DNA of 64,000 nucleotides from assembly GCA_012034655.1 (NCBI GenBank), contig JAAUOZ010000003.1, forward strand, positions 1 through 64,000, in the 5' to 3' direction. The position numbers and the translations under genes are program-made. Shown piece by piece: positions 13,998-31,456 of the stretch. Below the pieces are notes generated by a model, which was given only the letters and a program-made list of their open reading frames with translations, was not told the origin of the DNA and searched no databases. Positions within the stretch are counted from its first letter, which is position 1; each line of letters begins with the position of its first letter. This stretch comes from Leptolyngbyaceae cyanobacterium CSU_1_3 (lineage in GTDB: Bacteria; Cyanobacteriota; Cyanobacteriia; Leptolyngbyales; Leptolyngbyaceae).

Positions 13998-15838
13998 GTG
14001 AACAAACGCTGGAGAAACGCAGGACTGTACGCGCTCCTGGCAATCGTAGTCATTGCCCTGGCAACCACCTTTTTCGACAAGCAGCCGCAAACTCGTCAAA
14101 CGTGGCGCTATAGCCAGTTCATTCAAGAAGTCCAAAATAACAAAGTCGAGAAAGTGAGTCTGAGTGCAGATCGCACCAAAGCTCTCGTCAAAGTGCAAGA
14201 CGGCACAAACATTTTGGTCAACATCCCCGATGGCGACCCTGATCTGGTCAACATTCTGATCAAAAACAATGTTGATATTTCAGTCTCACCGCAGCAAGAC
14301 GACAGCTTCTGGCTGCGGGCGCTGAGTAGCCTGTTCTTCCCAGTCTTGTTGCTGGTGGGTCTGTTCTTTTGTTGCGCCGTGCCCAAAACGGCCCTGGAAG
14401 CCAGGCGATGAATTTTGGTAAATCAAAAGCCAGAGTTCAGATGGAGCCTCAGACACAGGTGACGTTTGGCGATGTCGCAGGCATTGACCAGGCAAAGCTA
14501 GAACTCAACGAAGTGGTAGATTTTCTCAAAAACGCCGATCGCTTTACCGCAGTCGGGGCAAAAATCCCCAAAGGGGTGTTGCTCGTCGGGCCTCCTGGAA
14601 CAGGTAAAACGCTGCTAGCGAGGGCCGTCGCCGGAGAAGCAGGCGTTCCCTTCTTTTCGATCTCCGGTTCAGAATTTGTAGAAATGTTCGTAGGGGTGGG
14701 TGCATCCCGCGTTCGTGACCTGTTTGAGCAAGCAAAAGCGAACGCGCCCTGCATCGTCTTCATTGATGAAATTGATGCGGTCGGTCGTCAACGTGGCGCA
14801 GGTTTGGGCGGTGGCAACGACGAACGAGAACAAACCCTGAACCAACTTTTGACCGAGATGGATGGTTTCGAGGGCAATACTGGAATCATCATTATCGCCG
14901 CCACCAACCGGCCTGACGTTTTGGATGCAGCACTGCTGCGCCCCGGACGTTTTGACCGTCAAGTCGTCGTCGATCGCCCCGATTATGCAGGTCGTCTAGA
15001 AATTCTCAACGTCCACTCTCGTGGCAAAACCCTAGCGAAGGACGTTGACCTAGAAAAAATTGCCCGGCGGACTCCTGGCTTCACTGGCGCTGACCTCTCT
15101 AACCTGCTGAACGAAGCTGCCATTCTGGCTGCTCGGCGCAACCTGACCGAAGTATCAATGGACGAAGTGAACGATGCGATCGATCGCGTCCTCGCTGGCC
15201 CAGAGAAGAAAGATCGCGTCATGAGCGAAAAGCGTAAAGAATTAGTGGCTTATCACGAAGCGGGTCACGCACTGGTTGGCGCTCTCATGCCTGACTATGA
15301 CCCAGTGCAGAAAATTAGCATCATTCCCCGTGGTCGGGCGGGTGGTCTAACGTGGTTTACCCCCAGCGAAGACCGCATGGATTCGGGTCTGTATTCACGA
15401 TCGTATCTACAAAACCAGATGGCAGTTGCCCTCGGTGGTCGCATTGCCGAAGAAATCATCTACGGCGATGACGAAGTGACGACGGGTGCAGCCAGCGACT
15501 TGCAGCAAGTGGCACGGGTTGCCAAGCAAATGGTGACTCGGTTTGGGATGAGCGATCGACTTGGCCCGGTGGCCCTGGGTCGCCAACAAGGCAACATGTT
15601 CTTGGGTCGCGACATCGCAGCGGAGAGAGACTTTTCTGACAAAACCGCTTCAGCGATCGATGAAGAAGTCAACAGTCTGGTAGATCAGGCTTACCGTCGC
15701 GGCAAGCAAGTTCTGCTAGAAAACAAACACGTTTTGGATCAGTTGGCAGCATTACTCGTTGAGAAAGAAACGGTTGATTCTGAAGAACTGCAAGAACTGT
15801 TGGCTAACAACGATGTGAAAATGGCATCGATCGCGTAA
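13998..15838 (+). CDS. ftsH: FtsH membrane AAA+ zinc metalloprotease (frameshifted near 14370)
   Basis: 613 residues when repaired. Two transmembrane segments (about 10-28 and 108-126) flank a small extracytoplasmic domain. The AAA+ module has Walker A GPPGTGKT, Walker [14 protein letters not shown] and the arginine-finger region [19 protein letters not shown]. The protease has the zinc site HEAGH. It degrades membrane proteins, including photodamaged D1 in cyanobacteria. As written, the frame breaks inside the second membrane helix: the T run at 14367-14370 needs one more T to read [15 protein letters not shown]. Without it the upstream part ends at 14411. The start is GTG 13998 with AGGAGGA upstream. 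I cannot assign which of the usual four cyanobacterial paralogues this is. Confidence 0.93.
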
Positions 15839-19177: not shown

Positions 19178-20268
19178 ATGGGCAGCAATTTTGGTCAGTT
19201 ATTTCGCATCAGCACATTTGGTGAGTCTCACGGCGGCGGCGTAGGTGTGGTAATTGATGGCTGTCCTCCATTGATTGAGATTTCGGCGGCAGATCTTCAG
19301 GTGGAACTCGATCGTCGCGACCCGGACAGAGTAAAATCACGACTCCGCGCAATGAAGCCGATCAGTGCGAGATTTTGTCGGGCGTGTTTGAGGGCAAAAC
19401 TTTGGGAACCCCGATCGCGATTCTCGTTCGCAACAAAGACCAGCGATCGCAGGACTATCGCGAAATGGCAACCACCTATCGACCGTCCCATGCAGATGCG
19501 ACCTACGACGCAAAGTATGGCATTCGCAACTGGCAAGGGGGAGGGAGATCGTCGGCGAGAGAGACGATTGGGCGAGTAGCAGCAGGCGCAATCGCCAAGA
19601 AGATTCTGCGCGAAATTGCCGGAGTTGAAATCATTAGCTATGTGAAGCGAATTAAGGATTTGGAGGGCGTAATCGATCCTAACACCGTGACCCTGGAGGA
19701 AGTTGAGAGCAACATTGTGCGCTGCCCCGATCGTGAATGTGCCGATCGCATGGTGGATTTGATCGAGCAGGTTCGCAATCAGGGAGACTCGATCGGAGGC
19801 GTGGTCGAATGTGTGGCTCGTGGCGTTCCGAGGGGGTTGGGCGATCCGGTGTTCGATAAGTTGGAGGCGGATCTGGCAAAAGCGGTGATGTCTCTGCCGG
19901 CCACGAAGGGATTTGAAATTGGCTCCGGCTTCGCAGGAACGCTCATGACTGGCAGCGAACACAACGACGAATTCTATGCTGACAATGGCGAAATTCGCAC
20001 GGTGACGAATCGATCGGGCGGGGTGCAGGGGGGCATTTCTAACGGTGAAAATATTCTGATTCGGATTGCCTTCAAGCCCACGGCAACCATTCGCAAAGAG
20101 CAAAAAACCGTCACCGACAGCGGCGAAGAAGTAACCTTAGCTGCAAAGGGGCGACACGATCCCTGTGTGTTGCCACGGGCTGTGCCAATGGTGGAAGCAA
20201 TGGTAGCTCTGGTGCTGTGCGATCATCTGTTGCGCCAGCGAGGACAGTGTGGTGCGGTTAATGAGTAA
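19178..20268 (+). CDS. aroC: Chorismate synthase (frameshifted near 19318)
   Basis: This FMN-dependent enzyme makes chorismate, the branch point to aromatic amino acids, folate and quinones; 363 residues when repaired. Typical blocks are [23 protein letters not shown]-type [18 protein letters not shown], and [15 protein letters not shown]. As written, the frame is lost after LDRR near 19318: a C is missing. With it the text reads [20 protein letters not shown] and joins the rest of the protein. A long antisense frame over this gene is a shadow. As the gene is normally indispensable, a sequence error is the likeliest reason. Confidence 0.92.
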
Positions 20269-20558: not shown

Positions 20559-23500
20559 ATGAACCAGTGGAACCGCCTTATTCAAGAGAGTGATCTGCAA
20601 AATCCTTTGAGACTTTCTCAGTCCGTGTTGGAGTTGTTGGCCCAAGAAGTCGATCGCTATCAGACCCTAGAAAAAAGCTTGCCCTCTCGAATTTTGCGCT
20701 ATCTGGTCGATGGTGACGACGAGCGTGTGTTGCGAGATATAGAAGCGGCGATCGTGCAACAGACGCAACAAGTGCTCACGACCCAAAGCTTCTGGGCTGG
20801 GTGGCAAAGTGGCACATCTGATCGGGCGAGGCAAGCTTTGTTCAAAGCCTTACCCGTTGCGGATGCTGGGTTCTATTGCCGACTCGCACAGTTATATAGT
20901 GTGGAAAGTAACGCAGCCCATGCCAGCCAAACTGCAATTCGTTTTGGTGCAACTGCATGGTTTGATCCATTTTTGCGCGCCTTAGCTCAGACGATTTCCT
21001 ATGACTATTATGGCTACTACAAGGGTCGATCTAAGGTGAATTTAAAGTTTTCGATCGCCCAGGTCGAAGCCATGTTTGCAGAGGTGAATGAGCCAGCAGA
21101 ATCTTTGATTGAGTTGGTTTATTCGAGCGATCCAGACAACTGGAATTTGCACTATCTGATTCCGATCGTGGCAGGGCTAGAAGGATTTGCGGACTTTACC
21201 TTAAAACACGGGAAACTGTTGCAAGGTGCATTAACTCATCCTCAAAATCTCAATCGATCTCATGCGTTAAGAATGATGGTTCTGGTGGGCGTTCCAGTTG
21301 AGCCGTTTTTAGATCGAGTGGTCGATCGGGCCATCAGTTCTGCTAAGTCTGAGCGAGAAATTGCTATTGAGTTGGTGCGATCGGTTTCTGAGCAAGCAAT
21401 TCCCTACGTAAAGCAGCGCATTCAGTCTGGAAAAGCAGACGATCGCCTATACGGCGTGCAGTTGTTGCAGATGTTAGAGGGCGATCGGGCGCGAGAATTT
21501 TTAGAGATGCTGTTACAAACTGAGAAAGCGGCAAAGGTGAGAGAAGCGATCGAGAAGATTCTCAACCCTGTTGTGTTTGATACAACGGTGGAATCAATTA
21601 GTTATCAACTTCCAGAGCTACCTGAGATCACACTAGATTTACCACTGGATGGTGCAGTGAGATCAGAATTTGAAACGCTATTTACAATATCAAAGCAATC
21701 GACTCAAGCCGCTGTTAAGCATTTACTCAATTACTTAGATTCTCAATCGACTCAAGAACAGATTAATAACGTTCTGAATCATATTAAGTCGTGGATACCC
21801 AATCACTTAGTAAAGCAGATAAAAACAGATTCAAAAAATCTATCGGATTGGAAGTTATCAGTTCAAGAAGTACTATCAGAAGCGATCGATCAACACCAAG
21901 AGAAGGTTTGGCAAACGCTACAAACAGGAAAAAAAGATTGCTGTCTCAACTGCTATTTTAATAATGCTGGTTATCAAAACTGGCAACGCTGGCAACGACA
22001 AATGTTTAAGTTTATCGAACAGCCGCAAATTCAATTGATGCATGTGTTGCGATTGCTGATCATGCAAAATACAATTCGCTCAGATAACTTTAGTGGAGCA
22101 GAAGTATACCTCAATCACTATCGCAAAGTTCATGAAGCATCGTTTGGGCTGAGAGAATTGTCTGCCCATCTCCAGGCGCTAGGTTTTGAGCCTGAAACCG
22201 TGACAAACGCGCTGTTACCCAAAGACAGTTGGCTTCCTGACTGTTCAATATTTTTTCAATGGGGAGAGGAGGCAATTTGGCCGCATTTCGTCGATCGCCT
22301 CATGCTACTAGAAACGGCGATCGCTACCAAAAAATCCTCTGGCGACTATTATCACCACGATCGTCGCAAACGTGCCTTACAGATCCTCTGCACCTTTCCT
22401 CAACCGCCTGCAACCCTTATCCCACAACTTTGGGAGGTTGCCTTGGGCGGTTCTAAAGCTGACAACTTAATGGCACAGAGAGCGATCGAGAAATTGCCTA
22501 ACAGTCGGGTAGAAATCGTCAAAGTGTTGAGCGATCGCGATGCCAGCAAGCGAATCGTTGCGGCTCAATGGTTGGCAAAACTGGGCGAAACCAGCAGCAC
22601 TTCTGAGTTGAAAAGCTTACTCAAACAAGAAAAGAATGAGACCGTTCGCGATGCGTGGATGCGATCGCTCGAAAAACTCGGCGCATCTGTGGACGAATTT
22701 CTCGATCTCGACAACTTGCTAAACCAAGCGCAAGCTGGGCTGAAGAAAGGCATTCCCAGTGCGCTCGATTGGTTTCCGTGCGATCGTCTACCCGTAGTGC
22801 ATTGGCAAGACTCTGGCGAGGTCATCGAGCCACAAATCATCATCTGGTTTGTTGTCCAAACTCACAAACAAAAAAATGCCGAACCCAGCCCCATGTTGCG
22901 TCGCTATCTGTCTTATGCAAAAAAGAGCGATTGTGCCGCACTCGGACAGTTCATTTTAGAGACCTGGATTGGGCAAGATACTCTGCCGATGTATACCCAC
23001 GAGCAAGCCGCAGCACTGGCCAAACCCAGCGCCGATCAAGTATGGCAACAGACCCAAAAATTCTTGAAAGACACACCCGAAACAGAAGCAGAAATTTTTC
23101 AGAAACACTACGACGATTACAAAAAACAATTCGCCAACTCTGGGAGATCATGCACGCCAGAAGACGAGAAACATTGGCGAGAATGGGCTAGAAGTAATGC
23201 AGCTTACACACTCAAGCAGCGACAAGAAGCAGAAGCTGAAACCTATGAGTTAGCATATCGACGAATTTTAGGAGGATACTTATCGCAAATCAGAGGCACG
23301 GCCAGCCAAGATAAGGGAGTTTTGGCGATCGCGGCAGCCTGTTGTGATTCTGCTGCCGTTCCTGTCATTGGTGGCTATCTGAAAACCTACTACGGAATGC
23401 GCCTGGCCCAATGCCTCGCCCTGCTGCAAGTCTTGGGCTGGATCGAAGACTTCAGCGCCATTCAGTTGTTATTATCTGTTTCCAATCGATTTCGCACCAA

Positions 23501-24560
23501 AAAGATCCAGGAAGAAGCCGGAAATTTGGTAAATCAAATTGCAGAGCGCAATGGCTGGACACGCGATCAATTAGGCGATCGCACCATTCCCTGGTGTGGA
23601 TTTAGCGATCGAGATCAAATGATTCTAGACTACGGCGATCGACAAATCACCGCTCGTTTAGACAACACGTTTAATTTTATTCTCAACGATGAAACGGGTA
23701 AAGTCATCAAAACTTTACCCAACGCTAGAAAGAACGACGACGACGAACTCGTGAAACTAGCAAAAAAACAGTTTAGTGATAGCAAAAAGCAACTCAAACA
23801 GGTACTCGAATTGCAAAAAGAGCGATTGTATGAGGCAATGTGTACCCAACGCACCTGGGATTCTCAAGACTGGGAGTCCTTTCTACATCAGCATCCGATC
23901 GTCAGTCGCTATTGCCAAAGACTCGTGTGGATCGCGTTTGAAAACTCACAAATCATTACCACATTTCGCCCCTTAGAAGACGGCACACTGACCGACGCAG
24001 TAGATAACGCAGTGACGATCGCCCCCGGTGCTCAAATCGGACTTGCCCACGGCAGTTTATTGTCAGAATCAGCCCGTCAAGCCTGGCAAACGCACTTTGC
24101 CGACTATGAGGTGTCGCCTGTCTTTGACCAACTCAGCAAGGGGCTATACGCCCTCTCTGCAAAGCAGCAAGACGAGGTAGAACTGGAAGACTTTGAAGGA
24201 CACATGCTCGAAACCTTTGCACTGCGGGGCAAAGTAACAAAGCTCGGTTATGTCCGCGGGCAAACCGAAGATGCAGGCTGGTTTTATGACTACAACAAGA
24301 CCTTTTCTGGGCTGGGGCTGCGCGCCACGATCGGCTTTACTGGAAACTACCTCCCTGAAGAAAATCGCACCGTGGCGCTGACTCGCATTTCCTTCTCAAA
24401 ACTAACAGAGAGCAACACACACCACTATTACCAAGATTTGCGCCTTCCCCTTAAAGACGTGCCGCTGGTGTTACTCAGCGAAGTCTACGAAGATATGCGA
24501 AGTTTATCTTCGTTAGGCAGTGGCTATGACCCTGACTGGGAGAAGACAAGTGGGTACTAA
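20559..24560 (+). CDS. DUF4132 giant protein with HEAT-like repeats (MolR/YehI-like)
   Basis: The product has 1333 residues from ATG 20559, which has AGGAG six bases upstream; a TTG at 20544 is a weaker start. The first two thirds are alpha-helical, with HEAT-like stretches (KVLSDRDASKRIVAAQWLAK, TSELKSLLKQEKNETVRDAW). The C-terminal 250 or so residues form the DUF4132 region: RLVWIAFE, FRPLEDGTLTDA, IGLAHGSLLSESARQAWQTH, FADYEVSPVFDQL. E. coli YehI (once called MolR) has this C-terminus. It opens a five-gene operon, 44 bp before the MoxR ATPase. The HEAT scaffold suggests a large protein-binding platform; function is not established. Confidence 0.85.
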   Translation: MNQWNRLIQESDLQNPLRLSQSVLELLAQEVDRYQTLEKSLPSRILRYLVDGDDERVLRDIEAAIVQQTQQVLTTQSFWAGWQSGTSDRARQALFKALPVADAGFYCRLAQLYSVESNAAHASQTAIRFGATAWFDPFLRALAQTISYDYYGYYKGRSKVNLKFSIAQVEAMFAEVNEPAESLIELVYSSDPDNWNLHYLIPIVAGLEGFADFTLKHGKLLQGALTHPQNLNRSHALRMMVLVGVPVEPFLDRVVDRAISSAKSEREIAIELVRSVSEQAIPYVKQRIQSGKADDRLYGVQLLQMLEGDRAREFLEMLLQTEKAAKVREAIEKILNPVVFDTTVESISYQLPELPEITLDLPLDGAVRSEFETLFTISKQSTQAAVKHLLNYLDSQSTQEQINNVLNHIKSWIPNHLVKQIKTDSKNLSDWKLSVQEVLSEAIDQHQEKVWQTLQTGKKDCCLNCYFNNAGYQNWQRWQRQMFKFIEQPQIQLMHVLRLLIMQNTIRSDNFSGAEVYLNHYRKVHEASFGLRELSAHLQALGFEPETVTNALLPKDSWLPDCSIFFQWGEEAIWPHFVDRLMLLETAIATKKSSGDYYHHDRRKRALQILCTFPQPPATLIPQLWEVALGGSKADNLMAQRAIEKLPNSRVEIVKVLSDRDASKRIVAAQWLAKLGETSSTSELKSLLKQEKNETVRDAWMRSLEKLGASVDEFLDLDNLLNQAQAGLKKGIPSALDWFPCDRLPVVHWQDSGEVIEPQIIIWFVVQTHKQKNAEPSPMLRRYLSYAKKSDCAALGQFILETWIGQDTLPMYTHEQAAALAKPSADQVWQQTQKFLKDTPETEAEIFQKHYDDYKKQFANSGRSCTPEDEKHWREWARSNAAYTLKQRQEAEAETYELAYRRILGGYLSQIRGTASQDKGVLAIAAACCDSAAVPVIGGYLKTYYGMRLAQCLALLQVLGWIEDFSAIQLLLSVSNRFRTKKIQEEAGNLVNQIAERNGWTRDQLGDRTIPWCGFSDRDQMILDYGDRQITARLDNTFNFILNDETGKVIKTLPNARKNDDDELVKLAKKQFSDSKKQLKQVLELQKERLYEAMCTQRTWDSQDWESFLHQHPIVSRYCQRLVWIAFENSQIITTFRPLEDGTLTDAVDNAVTIAPGAQIGLAHGSLLSESARQAWQTHFADYEVSPVFDQLSKGLYALSAKQQDEVELEDFEGHMLETFALRGKVTKLGYVRGQTEDAGWFYDYNKTFSGLGLRATIGFTGNYLPEENRTVALTRISFSKLTESNTHHYYQDLRLPLKDVPLVLLSEVYEDMRSLSSLGSGYDPDWEKTSGY

Positions 24561-24604
24561 ATTCGCAGAAATTCATAGTAAAATTGTACTAAACAGGAAT
24601 CATC

Positions 24605-25732
24605 ATGACCCCAGCAAAGACCCTGCGAGAGCCTGCTGAAATTCGCTATGCCGAGGAACTTAGCGCCCTAGCTGCGATCGACGAAGCGCCCAAGCCTTCT
24701 GGCTGGAATCTCTCTCCCAGAGCGGTTCGCACCTTTATTTTAGGCTCAGACGGCAAGACGTTAGGCTCTAAGTCAAAGAAGAAAACCGGAACCGTAATTA
24801 GCCAAAAATTCTATGGAGATGATGCGTTAATTGATCGAGCCATTATCACTCTAGCAGGCAACCGAGGACTGATGTTAGTGGGAGAACCAGGAACCGCAAA
24901 GTCAATGCTATCAGAATTGCTAGCAGCAGCTATTTCTGGAAACTCAAAGAATACAATTCAAGGAACTGCGGGAACGACTGAAGATCAGATAAAATACTCT
25001 TGGAATTATGCTTTATTGCTGTCTCAAGGAGCAAGTTTGCAAGCGCTGGTGGCATCTCCAATATTTACAGCAATGAAAGATGGGAAACTGGTGCGATTTG
25101 AAGAAATTACACGCTGCCCACCAGAGATTCAAGATGCTTTGGTGAGCATTCTCTCAGACAAAGTATTACACATTCCAGAATTAGGAGATGAAACGGGAAC
25201 TGTGTTTGCCCAAAAAGGCTTTAACGTAATTGCCACAGCAAATTTACGTGATCGTGGCGTTCATGAGATGTCAAGTGCATTAAAGCGACGATTCAATTTT
25301 GAAACAGTTGAACCCATCCGCAATAAAACACTAGAACTACAACTAGTGATGGCACAAACACAAGCGTTATTAACCGATGCAGAAGCAACCATAGAGCTTG
25401 ATATGAACGTGATTGACTTACTCGTGACTACCTTTCACGATCTGCGCGAGGGGCGCACTGAAGAGGGAACGATCGTAGAGAAACCTTCTACTGTCATGTC
25501 TACGGCCGAAGCAGTATCCGTGGGGGTTTCAGCAGGGCTAGATGCTCGTTATTTTGGCAACAGCGTGGTTGAAAGTGAGCATATTGTCCGCAATTTAGTC
25601 GGAACAGTTCTCAAAGATAACCCTGAAGATGCAAAAAAACTCAAGCACTATTTTGATGTAGTGGTGAAGTCTCGCGCTCGGACAAAGCCAGAATGGGAAG
25701 CGTTTTATCACGCCAGAAAGTGGTTGAAGTAA
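24605..25732 (+). CDS. MoxR-type AAA+ ATPase (YehL-like)
   Basis: The product has 375 residues. Walker A is GEPGTAKS (93-100). Walker B reads LVRFEEITRCP with Glu166-Glu167, where most MoxR proteins have Asp-Glu. Sensor I is VIATANLRDRGV, and an arginine-finger-like segment is SSALKRRFNFETVEP. MoxR ATPases act with VWA proteins to remodel or insert metal into target complexes, and a VWA protein lies two genes downstream. The N-terminal 70 residues are specific to this subgroup. Sequence and context match E. coli YehL. Confidence 0.9.
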   Translation: MTPAKTLREPAEIRYAEELSALAAIDEAPKPSGWNLSPRAVRTFILGSDGKTLGSKSKKKTGTVISQKFYGDDALIDRAIITLAGNRGLMLVGEPGTAKSMLSELLAAAISGNSKNTIQGTAGTTEDQIKYSWNYALLLSQGASLQALVASPIFTAMKDGKLVRFEEITRCPPEIQDALVSILSDKVLHIPELGDETGTVFAQKGFNVIATANLRDRGVHEMSSALKRRFNFETVEPIRNKTLELQLVMAQTQALLTDAEATIELDMNVIDLLVTTFHDLREGRTEEGTIVEKPSTVMSTAEAVSVGVSAGLDARYFGNSVVESEHIVRNLVGTVLKDNPEDAKKLKHYFDVVVKSRARTKPEWEAFYHARKWLK

Positions 25733-25768
25733 CGGGGTTGAAGTAATAGCGGGGCGAGGGGTTTAACG

Positions 25769-28218
25769 ATGCGTCATTCGACTGAAATACAAACACTCTT
25801 ACAGGCACTACTGCGATCGAGCGAACAAGAAAAGATTATCTACTTTCCCATCCGTCATCACAGCCCAGCTTGTGCCTGGCATATTCAACAACTGATTCGC
25901 GCTGAGAAACCTGCGGCAGTGTTGATCGAAGGGCCGTCAGACATAACCGAACTAATCCCGTTTATTCTTCATGCAAAAACTCGCGCTCCTTTTGCGGTTT
26001 ATACAACTTACATTCCAGCAAAAGTCGCCGACGAGACCTTACGCAGCGATCCCCATCGATTTGCTGGCTATTACCCTTTTTGCGACTATTCACCCGAACT
26101 GGTTGCCCTCCGGGAAGGTGCAAAGGTCAAGGCTAATCTACAGTTTATTGATCTGACGTTCACTGATCAGGCCCGTGAATCTGAAACGAACTCGCAGATT
26201 CGAGACTTACAACAGGAAAGCTATTTACAACGCAGCAAATATATATCTTTACTGATAAAGAAGTCAGGATGTAGAAACCACGATGAACTCTGGGATCACT
26301 TATTTGAGTCAAGTTTTTTAACACTAGAAACTACACAATTTATCCACAATGTTGCAGCTTATTGCTACATGGCGCGACAGGATTCACCCACAAAGCTTTT
26401 GCAATCGGACGGCACGATCGCTCGTGAAACTGCAATGGCAATGGCAATTCAGGCAGCACGATCGCAAATCACTGGCAAAATTCTGGTCGTCACAGGTGGG
26501 TTTCACACTGTTGCTTTACCATCAATGGTTCAGCAGTCACTAAAAGAACCCACTCGACCCAAAAAAAACCCACTAGAAGAATCACAAACTGTTTTAATGC
26601 GATACAGCTTTGAACAGTTAGATGCAATCAACGGCTACGCAGCAGGAATGCCAGCACCTGAATATTATCAACGCATCTGGCAATCTATTCAAACCTACAA
26701 TTCTCAGTCAGACCATCCTTTTCTGACCGTCACTAATGAATGGCTGGTAGACATCAGCGCACAAACACGATCGCACCGGCATATGAGCGGACTCTCCACG
26801 GCGGACGCGATCGCTGCGCTGGAGCAATCGCGACGATTGGCACAATTTCGCGGGCATCCCGCTCCACTGAGGGAGGATTTGCTGGATGGTGTGCGGAGTT
26901 GCTTTGTCAAAGGGGCGATGGATGCGGATGGTCTGCTGGTGATGGAGTTTGTGGCGGGGCTGCTGAGAGGCGATCGGATTGGAGATTTGCCTGTGGATGT
27001 CGGTGTACCGCCGATCGTGGATGATTTTCGCAAGCAAGCGACGCGCTTTAGGTTGCAAATTCAAACCTCGATCGCCAAGTCTGTCACCCTGGATTTGTAC
27101 CGCAAAGCAAATCACCGTCGCATTAGCAGATTTCTGCACAGGCTCCAATTTCTCAGCATCCCCTTTGGGAGTGTGATCACAGGGCCTGATTTCGTCAAAG
27201 GACGAGGACTCGATCGCATTCAAGAAATCTGGGAATATCGATGGACTCCTCAGACGGAGAGCGTTTTGATTGAGCGATCGCTCTACGGTTCAACGATCGA
27301 GGAAGCAGCAATTCATCAGATTCAGACAGAAATTGACCATCTGGAAGAACACGGCAAAGGACGATCAGCAACAGAAGCGATCGCAATGGTGATTCAAGCC
27401 TGTTGCATGGGAATGCAGCATCATGCACAATATATTTTGACACTCATTGCAAATCAAATTAGTGAAGACTCTGCATTCGATTCCTTAATTGCTGCAATGA
27501 ATCAGTTAGTTCTACTTTGGCAATCACGAGAACCATTAGAAGCACAAACACTTGAAACAATACCAGAGTTGATTTTAATGTTGTATCAACGATCGTGCTA
27601 TCTCATTCCTGATTTAGTCAATAGCCCAATTGAGGCAGCAAATGCTATATTAGATGGCTTCTGCACCGTGCGAGAACTAGTGCAAACCCAAGCACAGCTT
27701 GACTCAGAGCTATTTTTATCGGCACTGGCTAATCTGTCGAATGCAGCCAGCAGCAATCCAGTCATTAGTGGCGGAGCAGCGGGGATTTTATATACTAGTG
27801 GATCGCTCGATCGTCCCCAGGTAATCGCCCTTGCGATCGGCTATCTCAACAGCAGCCAGGTGAGGGTTGGGGCAGAATTTTTGCGCGGGCTGCTGCGAAC
27901 CTGCCGAGAGATTGCTTGGAATGTTTCTGAACTATTGGTCGCGATCGATGAGCAACTTTCTACCTGGGACGAAGCATCGTTTCTAGGAATCTTACCCGAA
28001 TTGCGGTTAGCATTTGCAGAGTTTACACCCCAAGAAACTGACAAAATTGCTGAGGCCGTGCAAATTTGCATGGCGAAACCGATTTGGGCAACCTTAATCA
28101 CACTCAGCTAACAGAAAATGATTTACAACATGGGTTATGGCTCAATCAACAGTTAGTGAAATGTCTAGAAGCAGATGCACTACAAAGCTGGTTAATCGCT
28201 ACAGAAGGTGAATCATGA
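25769..28218 (+). CDS. DUF5682 protein (YehM-like; frameshifted near 28105)
   Basis: About 816 residues when repaired. The N-terminal region has RHHSPACAWHIQQLI (29-43), then VLIEGPSDITELIPF, and later VVTGGFHTVALP with His246. This EGP plus GxxH layout resembles the TraB/ChaN/erythromycin-esterase-like fold, so a hydrolase or heme/ligand-binding core is possible; this is inference. The C-terminal half is helical. As written, the frame stops at 28111. One extra base near 28105 would continue it as LTENDLQHGLWLNQQLVKCL to a TGA at 28216-28218. That stop overlaps the next ATG as ATGA, as expected for coupled genes. The break is therefore recent or a sequence error. Confidence 0.85.
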
Positions 28219-29351
28219 ACGCTAAACAAACAAAATTAATTCGCTGGCGACACATTCTAGGACGCTTCTCAGAAAATAAGCTGCAATGCCAAATATCTGC
28301 GGAAGATTTACGTCGAGAGGCAGCCTTAGATTATCTTTATGGCAAAGAATATCAGGGGCGAGGAGTTCGGGGAGAACACAATACTGATAAAAATCCGGGT
28401 AGCCTTGATCCAAGTCAGTTAACAGTTCCCACATGGATTCATGAAATACAAGAATTGTTTCCGAAAGAAACAGTCGAAGTGATCGAAAAACACGCGATCG
28501 ATCGCTATCATCTCACGGAGCTAGTCACCGATCCAAAGGTTTTAGAAACGCTGGAACCCAGCCAGGACTTACTAAAAATGGTATTGACCTTTCGAGGCAG
28601 AATGCAGGGTGAAGTTCTAAATGTAGCACGACGAATTGTAAGAGAAGTAGTTGAGGAGATTAAGCAAAAACTCGAAAAAGACATTCGGCGCACCCTATTA
28701 GGAAAGCTAAATCCCTTTCAGCAAAGCCCCCTAAAAATTGCTCAGAATTTAGACTGGCGAGGGACGTTACGGCAAAACTTAAAAAATTACGATCCTGAGA
28801 CTCAGCAGCTAGTGATTGAGAAAGTTCGTTTTTTCTCGCGGGTAGAGCGACAACTGCCCTGGCAGGTGATTCTCTGCGTCGATGAGAGCGGCAGCATGGC
28901 GGATTCAGTGATTCATAGCGCTGTCATGGCGGGAATTTTGACGAGTTTGCCAGCGCTCAAAGTCAATCTGGTCATCTTCGACACAGCGGTGGTAGATTTG
29001 TCTGATCGGGCGGACGATCCGATCGAGGTATTGATGAGTGTGCAGTTGGGCGGCGGAACTGACATTGGCAAGGCGTTAACCTATTGTGAACAGTTGGTTC
29101 AAGATCCCAATCGCACCGTTTTGGTATTGGTGAGCGACTTTGCAGAAGGAGCATCTCCTAACAAATTGATCACTAGCTGTCGTCGGCTCAAAGAGTCTGG
29201 GGTCAAGCTTTTGGGGTTGGCTTCTTTAGATAATGAAGCAAATTCTTACTACGATAAGCAAATGGCAGCACGATTAGCCGCGAATGGGATGGATATTGCT
29301 GCACTCACGCCTAAGCAATTAGCAGAATGGTTAGTCAAGGTCATGCGATAG
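28215..29351 (+). CDS. VWA-domain protein (YehP-like)
   Basis: The product has 378 residues. The N-terminal 200 are helical. The C-terminal VWA domain has a complete MIDAS: DESGS (223-227), Thr in LGGGTDIGKAL and Asp in LVSDFAEGA. MoxR-VWA pairs are recurrent: the ATPase works on or through the metal-dependent VWA adaptor. The start overlaps the restored stop of the DUF5682 gene by ATGA. Family and context match E. coli YehP. Confidence 0.9.
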   Translation: MNAKQTKLIRWRHILGRFSENKLQCQISAEDLRREAALDYLYGKEYQGRGVRGEHNTDKNPGSLDPSQLTVPTWIHEIQELFPKETVEVIEKHAIDRYHLTELVTDPKVLETLEPSQDLLKMVLTFRGRMQGEVLNVARRIVREVVEEIKQKLEKDIRRTLLGKLNPFQQSPLKIAQNLDWRGTLRQNLKNYDPETQQLVIEKVRFFSRVERQLPWQVILCVDESGSMADSVIHSAVMAGILTSLPALKVNLVIFDTAVVDLSDRADDPIEVLMSVQLGGGTDIGKALTYCEQLVQDPNRTVLVLVSDFAEGASPNKLITSCRRLKESGVKLLGLASLDNEANSYYDKQMAARLAANGMDIAALTPKQLAEWLVKVMR

Positions 29352-29359
29352 TTATAGAA

Positions 29360-29390
29360 TTTATACCTGATTTATACCTGATTTATACCT
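29360..29390 (+). repeat. 11-bp tandem repeat in leader of SWIM gene
   Basis: TTTATACCTGA is present in nearly three copies, ending 8 bp before the ATG at 29399. It occupies the place where a ribosome site would be expected. Confidence 0.8.
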
Positions 29391-29398
29391 AAAAATTT

Positions 29399-31456
29399 AT
29401 GCTTAATAAACTTCAAAAACAATCTCATTGCTTTGATGATGCAAGGCTGGAAGCGATCTCGAATAAAGGTTTAGTTAGACGAGCCAAAAAAGATTTTGAA
29501 CAGGGTGAACAACCAGAAATTGTATCGGATACGGATATATGTTTAACGCTAAAAGTCACGGGTGAAGAAGTTATAATTACAGGTCAAGGATTCGCAAAGG
29601 CAAGGTGTAGCTGTCCATCGGTAGATATTTGTCGGCATATTTTAATCACAGGGCTTTGGCTACGATCGATTACTTCAGTTACTCAGTCTGACGTAGATTC
29701 TACAGTAAATTTATTGTCCCCTCACTATTTATTAGAACAAACCCTGGAACACCTTATAAAATGGGCTGGAAAACGAACCACACAGGCAGGAATTGAATTA
29801 TTTCATCAAGCTGAAGATGCTCAGATAGCTGATTTAGAAACGATTACAGTTCAGTTTCCTAGCTTAAATGTGACCAGTCGTTTTTTTCCAAACAGTTCAC
29901 TCGAATTGAGTCTCTGTAATTGCAAAGCCCGTCAGGTTTGTCTGCATCAAGTTGCCGCCGTTTTACTTTACCAAAAAGCCCACGATCGTTTAATTACCCT
30001 CCCCGAATCAACTCATCAAGCCAATGAAGCGCCAAAAAATCGCTCTGAAGTTTTGTACACCGTAAAACAATTGCTGACCGAAATGGTGGCGATCGGTATC
30101 TGTCACCTATCCGACGCGATGAGACAACGCTGCGTTACTCTATCGGTTTCGGCAACGGGTGTGAACTTACCGCGACTGTCACGATCGCTTCGCCATCTCG
30201 CTGAAGATCTGCGACTCAGCCTCGATCGAGATGCAAAGTCTGATCCCAGTCGCTTGTTGCTGACAATGGCGCAAATCTATGCGCTGTGCTCTGCCCTAGA
30301 AAGTAGCCCCCGACAGGATTTGGTGGGTTGGCATCGGACTGAATATGAAGAAGTAGGCAACCTAGAACTTGCAGGAGTGGGAGCTTACCATTGGCAAACT
30401 CAATCGGGCTACGCCGGAATCACCGTTTTATTGTGGGATGTGCAAGCTCGACGCTGGTGCAGTTGGTCAGACAGTCGCCCCCGCTTCAAAGGGGCAGGAT
30501 TTTCGCCCCACGCTCGATATACGCAACCCATGCCCTGGGCGGGATTGCAAAGCCCCAAACAAGCCTCCCAGAGCCACTTTCGGCTCATGTCAGCCAAGCG
30601 AAACTACCAGGGCCGTCTGTCTTCGAGCGATCGCACCTCCGCCGTTGTCACCCATACAGTTCGGCCCAGCGATCTGAATTTTGAGGATTGCTTTCAAGAT
30701 TGGAAAGCGCTTTCTGAGTATGCGATCGCTCACCAAACTTGGGGGCTGCGGGAAAGAGAACCACTCAAGGAAATTGTTGTCGTGCGTCCAAATCGGTGGG
30801 GCGATCGGCGATTCGATGCGATTACTCAGACTTTCTATTGGGTGATTTTAGACAGCGAGGAGCGAGAAATCTTGTTGCAGGTTCCCTTTCGTGAGGTCGA
30901 TCGTCAAAGCATCCAAGTTTTAGAACAATTAAATCCTAACGAACCAAAGGTTTGGGGAATAGTCGCCCAAATTCAACTCACAAAAACAGGGTTGCACCTC
31001 TATCCAATTTCGCTGCTGTGCGAATCAGAAAATAGTAGTGTTGTGAATCTAAGCTTTAGCAGTTCAGTACAAAAATTTGAAGCACTAAAATCTACAGAGA
31101 TTTCTTCTGAGATGAGTACTCAAGCTGATACGTCAGATCCAGTGCCAGATTTAGAAGAAGAATGGGCAGAAAACCAGCTTGAGTCAGCAGAAAAAACATC
31201 TCCATCATTAGCTTTAGACCTGCAAATTAATCAGCTTATTACCGAGTTAGAGAGCATTGCCGAACAAGGAACACAAACAAGCAATAAATCGTGGATGAAA
31301 CGCTGGCAGCTAATCACGCAGAAATTTGAGGCAATGGGAATGAGCACGATCGTTCCTCTGCTCAAGTCCGGTTTGCAAATCAGGCGGCCCGTTGTTATCC
31401 TACAATTGCGCTACCTGTGTCAGCTTCTCAGCAAAGCCTCTAACTTCTCGCTCTGA
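29399..31456 (+). CDS. Double SWIM zinc-finger protein (YehQ-like)
   Basis: The product has 685 residues. Two SWIM motifs are clear: Cys70-x-Cys72...Cys78-x-His80 (CSCPSVDICRH) and Cys173-x-Cys175...Cys181-x-His183 (CNCKARQVCLH). SWIM fingers bind DNA or protein. The middle region (about 340-560) is beta-rich with many Trp/Arg, and the C-terminus (about 590-685) is acidic then helical. It is the last gene of the five-gene set, 47 bp after the VWA gene, and corresponds to E. coli YehQ. No nuclease motif is visible. Confidence 0.88.
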   Translation: MLNKLQKQSHCFDDARLEAISNKGLVRRAKKDFEQGEQPEIVSDTDICLTLKVTGEEVIITGQGFAKARCSCPSVDICRHILITGLWLRSITSVTQSDVDSTVNLLSPHYLLEQTLEHLIKWAGKRTTQAGIELFHQAEDAQIADLETITVQFPSLNVTSRFFPNSSLELSLCNCKARQVCLHQVAAVLLYQKAHDRLITLPESTHQANEAPKNRSEVLYTVKQLLTEMVAIGICHLSDAMRQRCVTLSVSATGVNLPRLSRSLRHLAEDLRLSLDRDAKSDPSRLLLTMAQIYALCSALESSPRQDLVGWHRTEYEEVGNLELAGVGAYHWQTQSGYAGITVLLWDVQARRWCSWSDSRPRFKGAGFSPHARYTQPMPWAGLQSPKQASQSHFRLMSAKRNYQGRLSSSDRTSAVVTHTVRPSDLNFEDCFQDWKALSEYAIAHQTWGLREREPLKEIVVVRPNRWGDRRFDAITQTFYWVILDSEEREILLQVPFREVDRQSIQVLEQLNPNEPKVWGIVAQIQLTKTGLHLYPISLLCESENSSVVNLSFSSSVQKFEALKSTEISSEMSTQADTSDPVPDLEEEWAENQLESAEKTSPSLALDLQINQLITELESIAEQGTQTSNKSWMKRWQLITQKFEAMGMSTIVPLLKSGLQIRRPVVILQLRYLCQLLSKASNFSL

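Follow-up and report, generated by a model that had tools for sequence, protein, structure and literature searches.

The yeh locus and its cyanobacterial counterpart

In the NorQ-NorD system, a finger of the VWA protein enters the pore of a MoxR ATPase, while the metal ion-dependent adhesion site (MIDAS) face holds the client (PMC9976466, PMC13036017). YehL is the name of another MoxR subfamily, for which no function is given (PMC3893208, PMC11432383). The literature searched reports no function for yehI, yehL, yehM, yehP and yehQ of Escherichia coli, and does not mention the family DUF5682. A cyanobacterial counterpart of this locus lies at positions 20559-31456 of the window, by which is meant the whole analysed stretch of 64,000 nucleotides (contig JAAUOZ010000003.1 of assembly GCA_012034655.1, positions 1 to 64,000, forward strand) from Leptolyngbyaceae cyanobacterium CSU_1_3. 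The locus is a genuine and conserved module, of a kind already known but not yet explained. Two things about it are surprising, namely the breadth of its conservation and the likely membership of the DUF5682/YehM N-terminal domain, with its invariant His30, Glu54 and His246, in the Tiki/EreA/ChaN superfamily. The latter reading is new here, and would give the long-unexplained yeh locus, conserved in at least nine phyla from Actinomycetota to Verrucomicrobiota, its first testable chemistry.

According to open reading frame (ORF) calls and Pfam, the DUF4132/HEAT, MoxR, DUF5682, VWA and SWIM genes follow one another directly on the plus strand:

20559..24560, plus strand: HEAT-repeat/DUF4132 protein, YehI-like, without a WGR domain, 1333 aa
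23346..24557, plus strand: C-terminal region of the DUF4132 protein (residues 930-1333), modelled with high confidence
24605..25732, plus strand: MoxR AAA+ ATPase, YehL type, 375 aa (AAA_5, 5.4e-36 in Pfam)
25769..28111, plus strand: DUF5682 protein, 780 aa as read (DUF5682, 8.3e-110 in Pfam)
28059..28218, plus strand: frameshifted C-terminal tail of the DUF5682 protein, about 50 residues, read in the -1 frame and ending in LHGETDLGNLNHTQLTENDLQHGLWLNQQLVKCLEADALQSWLIATEGES
28215..29351, plus strand: VWA protein of the CoxE type, YehP-like, 378 aa (VWA_CoxE, 1.4e-47 in Pfam)
29399..31456, plus strand: double-SWIM zinc protein, YehQ-like, 685 aa (SWIM, 6.9e-5 in Pfam)

The first gene is preceded by a Shine-Dalgarno-like AGGAG at about 20550, and its product matches DUF4132 at residues 1047-1231 (1.1e-44) and HEAT_2 at residues 653-709 (1.5e-7). 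All motifs of the MoxR protein are intact (Walker A, G93-S100; Walker B with E166-E167; sensor 1, N213; arginine finger, R228/R229), which together with its 49% identity to YehL marks it as YehL type. The MIDAS of the VWA protein is complete (D223/S225/S227, T282, D308), and the SWIM protein carries two CxCx5CxH motifs, CSCPSVDICRH at residues 70-80 and CNCKARQVCLH at residues 173-183. The five plus-strand genes and the families named for them in an earlier reading of the sequence alone (the sequence-only reading) are therefore borne out by ORFs, Pfam and these residues. Its intergenic gaps of 44, 36, -4 and 47 bp stand for the first, second and fourth; between the DUF5682 and VWA genes the gap is +103 bp as read, and the value of -4 is obtained only when the 3′-end of the DUF5682 gene is read in the -1 frame, because of a 1-nucleotide frameshift near that end.

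The proposed equivalence to the E. coli genes also holds. In strain K-12, yehI-yehK-yehL-yehM-yehP-yehQ comprises the matching five families in the same order and on one strand, and the window proteins share best-alignment identities (BLASTP) of 28% with YehI, 49% with YehL, 29% with YehM, 45% with YehP and 29% with YehQ. Among complete E. coli genomes 5362 of 5426 have a match, which makes the locus core in the species; in 3989 the match covers 80% or more of the locus. Its genes are tightly spaced like those of the window, with overlaps at yehM-yehP-yehQ. It differs from the window in the small yehK between yehI and yehL, which has no counterpart in the window order. Upstream it also has the WGR protein YehF and a broken second DUF4132 gene (yehH), which looks like the remnant of a second tandem copy, whereas the window lacks WGR and falls in another group.

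Conservation and co-inheritance of the five genes

The VWA protein alone served as the anchor for collecting relatives, because a multi-sequence alignment of DUF5682 had no stretch conserved enough for a genome search. For annotation of the best 80 GTDB loci by VWA similarity, which are not a random sample, profiles were built with the window and E. coli proteins as seeds; whether the other four genes were linked played no part in the choice of loci. All five families are present in 64 of these loci, and 57 of the 80 have exactly the window order. These 64 loci come from Pseudomonadota, Actinomycetota, Verrucomicrobiota, Planctomycetota, Acidobacteriota, Melainabacteria, Bacillota and Bacteroidota, making nine phylum-level groups in all with the Cyanobacteriota added by the window. 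The five families thus co-occur well beyond the window, contrary to the absence that would have refuted the sequence-only reading. Apart from tandem copies of DUF4132 and synteny within lineages, no sixth operon gene recurs in the 80 loci. Tandem DUF4132 pairs upstream of MoxR are common (loci L039, L041, L045, L046, L078, L093 and others).

Inheritance of the coupled set as one module is supported by the pairwise distance matrices of all five proteins, which correlate at r 0.90-0.98 (permutations, at most 0.16). Dispersed retention is the stronger evidence, because linked inheritance alone could produce the correlation. DUF4132 is present elsewhere in 14 of the 15 genomes without a linked copy, some of these 15 loci being cut by contig ends; for comparison, DUF4132 occurs in 9 of 339 sampled cyanobacterial genomes, a rate that is not from the 15 genomes' own taxa. 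In Synechococcaceae SM2_3_1 the set is split over two contigs (loci L122 and L038), one with MoxR-DUF5682 (71% and 53% identity to the window proteins) and one with VWA-SWIM (69% and 43%). We infer that the five proteins may belong to one physical complex, with the SWIM protein as a putative reader of nucleic acid or protein.

Within the Cyanobacteria the picture is different. DUF5682 occurs in 14 of the 339 sampled genomes, and DUF4132 and DUF5682 occur together only in the window and in genome G004, where they lie on separate contigs. The co-occurrence that the sequence-only reading proposed to look for in this phylum is thus rare there, while the conserved set and order are found in other phyla. 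The usual cyanobacterial form, also seen in Paenibacillus, is a three-gene MoxR-DUF5682-VWA core; its order is that of the window, but it lacks a linked DUF4132 or SWIM homologue and forms its own branch of cyanobacteria and Paenibacillus in the VWA tree. The window instead forms a group with SM2_3_1 and a genome of Blastocatellia (support 99/97), within a larger and less firm group that includes Verrucomicrobiota, Acidobacteriota and Sphaerotilaceae (83/80). The operon DUF4132 proteins of the window's group have no WGR domain, one member (L041) having a WGR protein downstream, while WGR occurs in 34 of the 54 loci outside the group. From its place in the VWA tree and the WGR pattern, therefore, the window carries the five-gene type, probably through lateral acquisition or very patchy retention. 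A divergent cyanobacterial order, VWA-MoxR-DUF5682 with a DUF5682 protein of 963 aa, was seen in locus L027 (genome G174), whose MoxR was nearer to that of the window than the MoxR of other cyanobacterial loci in a first comparison.

DUF5682 as a putative ATP-controlled hydrolase

The minimal core of the module is predicted to be MoxR-DUF5682-VWA, with DUF4132 and SWIM as add-ons; DUF5682 would for this reason be the natural client or effector. In the window it consists of an N-terminal Tiki/EreA/ChaN-like domain (about residues 20-310) and a helical C-terminal part, and the AlphaFold model (predicted local distance difference test, 88.9) has an alpha/beta N-domain followed by a mostly helical region. 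The motifs R-H-H-S-P, E-G-P, S-P-E, R-E-x-x-M and G-G/A-x-H show little or no variation across 32 DUF5682 relatives, with H30, S32, E54, E110, D128, R203, R219, E220 and H246 conserved in 32 of 32. The Tiki/EreA/ChaN/TraB superfamily shares this motif order (GxxH-like, E, R/D-E-x-MA, GxxH), and DUF5682 differs from it by some 450 extra, largely helical residues. When 35 homologous N-domains were scanned with Pfam, ChaN/Tiki was matched in 12 (best E-value, 2.9e-5), TraB in three, DUF5694 in two and erythromycin esterase in one, and no unrelated family in more than two, all superfamily E-values being weak. The DUF5682 model also matched a TraB protein in a viral fold library (probability 0.96, E 0.22). 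No TraB match came up among close relatives, and the window protein itself has no Pfam match to ChaN, TraB, DUF5694 or Ere. Taken with the invariant residues, the superfamily and fold matches lend support to the hydrolase-like core suggested for DUF5682, for which a catalytic activity is plausible. With DUF5682/YehM as a probable enzyme of the Tiki/ChaN superfamily, three predicted candidate catalytic residues and a minimal core, an old locus becomes testable at the bench.

The favoured reading, with a probability of roughly 0.45, is that DUF5682 is a Tiki-fold hydrolase remodelled or gated by a motor of MoxR and VWA, while DUF4132 and SWIM serve for scaffolding or targeting. The MoxR hexamer would hydrolyse ATP and drive a VWA protein inserted in its pore, as in NorQ-NorD. 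The MIDAS face of the VWA protein would grip DUF5682 and open, gate or mature its Tiki-type active site, so that hydrolysis of peptide or ester bonds by DUF5682 would come under ATP control. The place or target of the machine would be set by the SWIM zinc protein and by the HEAT scaffold DUF4132, a WGR-bearing protein in the other clade. NorQ-NorD and RavA-ViaA resemble the window in combining a MoxR ATPase with a VWA protein of intact MIDAS, and the motor mechanism is likely shared; however, they belong to another MoxR subfamily and have other partner proteins, the client of the window pair being putative. The module most likely works in maintenance or stress inside the cell, rather than as a mobile immune system.

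Several points weigh against this reading. Tiki-superfamily enzymes use a 2His/2Glu centre (PMC6254334), of which DUF5682 retains both His and one Glu, the first Glu being absent and its place taken by Ile28, which leaves a catalytic activity uncertain. Alignments of DUF5682 with ChaN and Ere by hhalign were short and of low probability, and a Foldseek search of the full-length protein against the PDB returned no significant match, only helical-repeat noise, as the helical half prevailed in the search. The correlated distances among the five proteins are also expected from shared descent of a linked cassette, and the window's own copy of DUF5682 is frameshifted as read.

This frameshift can be placed. 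The gene as read stops at TAA (28109-28111), and alignment with its nearest relative puts a 1-base gap at about 28059/28060, after which the tail in the -1 frame agrees with the C-termini of relatives; its TGA at 28216-28218 overlaps the ATG of the VWA gene. Just upstream of the locus, the genome's sole chorismate synthase gene (aroC, 19202-20232 in the window) is likewise split over two frames. Since this sole copy of a normally indispensable gene is broken in the same manner, assembly error is probably the likelier cause of both breaks than decay. Programmed -1 frameshifting in DUF5682 was rejected after inspection of the junction, which holds no X XXY YYZ slippery heptamer. Elsewhere in the window, an FtsH-like gene (13998-15838) may also be split, as a 489-aa AAA-M41 ORF from 14369 overlaps a 137-aa ORF in another frame.

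The absent first Glu bears as well on a different role, possible if unlikely, in which a client receives a metal or cofactor from the MoxR-VWA pair and DUF5682 is a metal- or haem-binding client or carrier, like ChaN, instead of a hydrolase. NorQ-NorD inserts iron (PMC9976466), and ChaN, annotated in Pfam as a haem-binding protein of the Tiki superfamily, is the commonest weak match of DUF5682. The invariant E54/H246/R219-E220 pattern, however, resembles the motifs of superfamily enzymes, and the 80 loci show no recurrent linkage of the operon to a metalloenzyme. The gated hydrolase can also be read more broadly, if doubtfully, as a widespread ATP-gated Tiki-fold protease or esterase, with the WGR/HEAT-DUF4132 and SWIM proteins selecting its substrates, possibly on nucleic acid; if true, such guided, energy-dependent hydrolysis would form a class distinct from Clp, Lon and FtsH.

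Damage, defence and molybdate as alternative roles

In one alternative, a DNA-damage accessory, the WGR, HEAT and SWIM parts would bind nucleic acid, while proteins at lesions would be removed or processed by the motor. In Deinococcus radiodurans the DUF4132 gene DRA0166, controlled by DdrO/IrrE, is induced by mitomycin C (PMC8533742); it is tied to the window by the DUF4132 family only. The frequency of WGR in loci outside the window's group would suit such a role, but the operon DUF4132 proteins of the group itself are without WGR, and there is no excess of LexA-type boxes upstream of the operon in 55 loci (the DdrO motif was not scanned). A damage role is thus considered quite unlikely.

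An anti-phage or biological-conflict system akin to the MoxR-vWA ternary systems is improbable, and the phage defence suggested by the sequence-only reading did not hold up. MoxR-vWA pairs do occur in proposed conflict systems (PMC7159879, PMC10910872), the locus is patchy in Cyanobacteria, and all five genes lie on the mobilizable Iodobacter plasmid pl1 (L145), close to insertion sequences and a type I restriction-modification system. Defence is nevertheless unsupported, because the PADLOC library matches the five proteins by one weak generic AAA match only, the flanks of relatives (89 proteins, without a random-genome control) have no apparent defence enrichment, the genes next to the locus in the window have ordinary roles in metabolism, transport and signalling (Pfam scans), and in E. 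coli the locus belongs to the core genome. The window shares MoxR and vWA with the MoxR-vWA-VMAP ternary systems, and has a bpMoxR Pfam match below the cutoff, but Pfam finds no beta-propeller, VMAP or effector-associated domain in the five proteins or their neighbours; the eLife paper on conflict systems does not mention SWIM, YehL or DUF4132. A search of a phage collection with the locus gave one match only, and no viral relatives of the VWA protein were found in IMG/VR. A faecal scaffold deposited as phage (L144; MT835988.1), an unverified record that may be bacterial, carries the MoxR-DUF5682-VWA core.

Regulation of molybdate use, after molR, the historic name of yehI (Lee et al., 1990, as cited in PMC8533742 and PMC7824862), is very improbable, given that no molybdenum genes lie in the window neighbourhood or recur in the 80 loci, and that moeA and moeB, of molybdate metabolism, were not differentially expressed in the DdrO work (PMC8533742).

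Searches of the PDB with the DUF5682 and SWIM profiles gave nothing meaningful, and the profile of the DUF4132 protein found only WGR (2ra8) and HEAT repeats, mostly artificial. The modelled C-terminal region of the DUF4132 protein had no clear PDB fold match, only a partial YugN-like one. A PARP-like H-Y-E motif in DUF4132 was dismissed on two grounds: the invariant Glu is part of the LSE helix at the C-terminus, and no ADP-ribosyltransferase came up in the fold search. The intergenic gap between the VWA and SWIM genes contains a perfect 11-bp tandem repeat at 29359-29390, with 2.9 copies of ATTTATACCTG.

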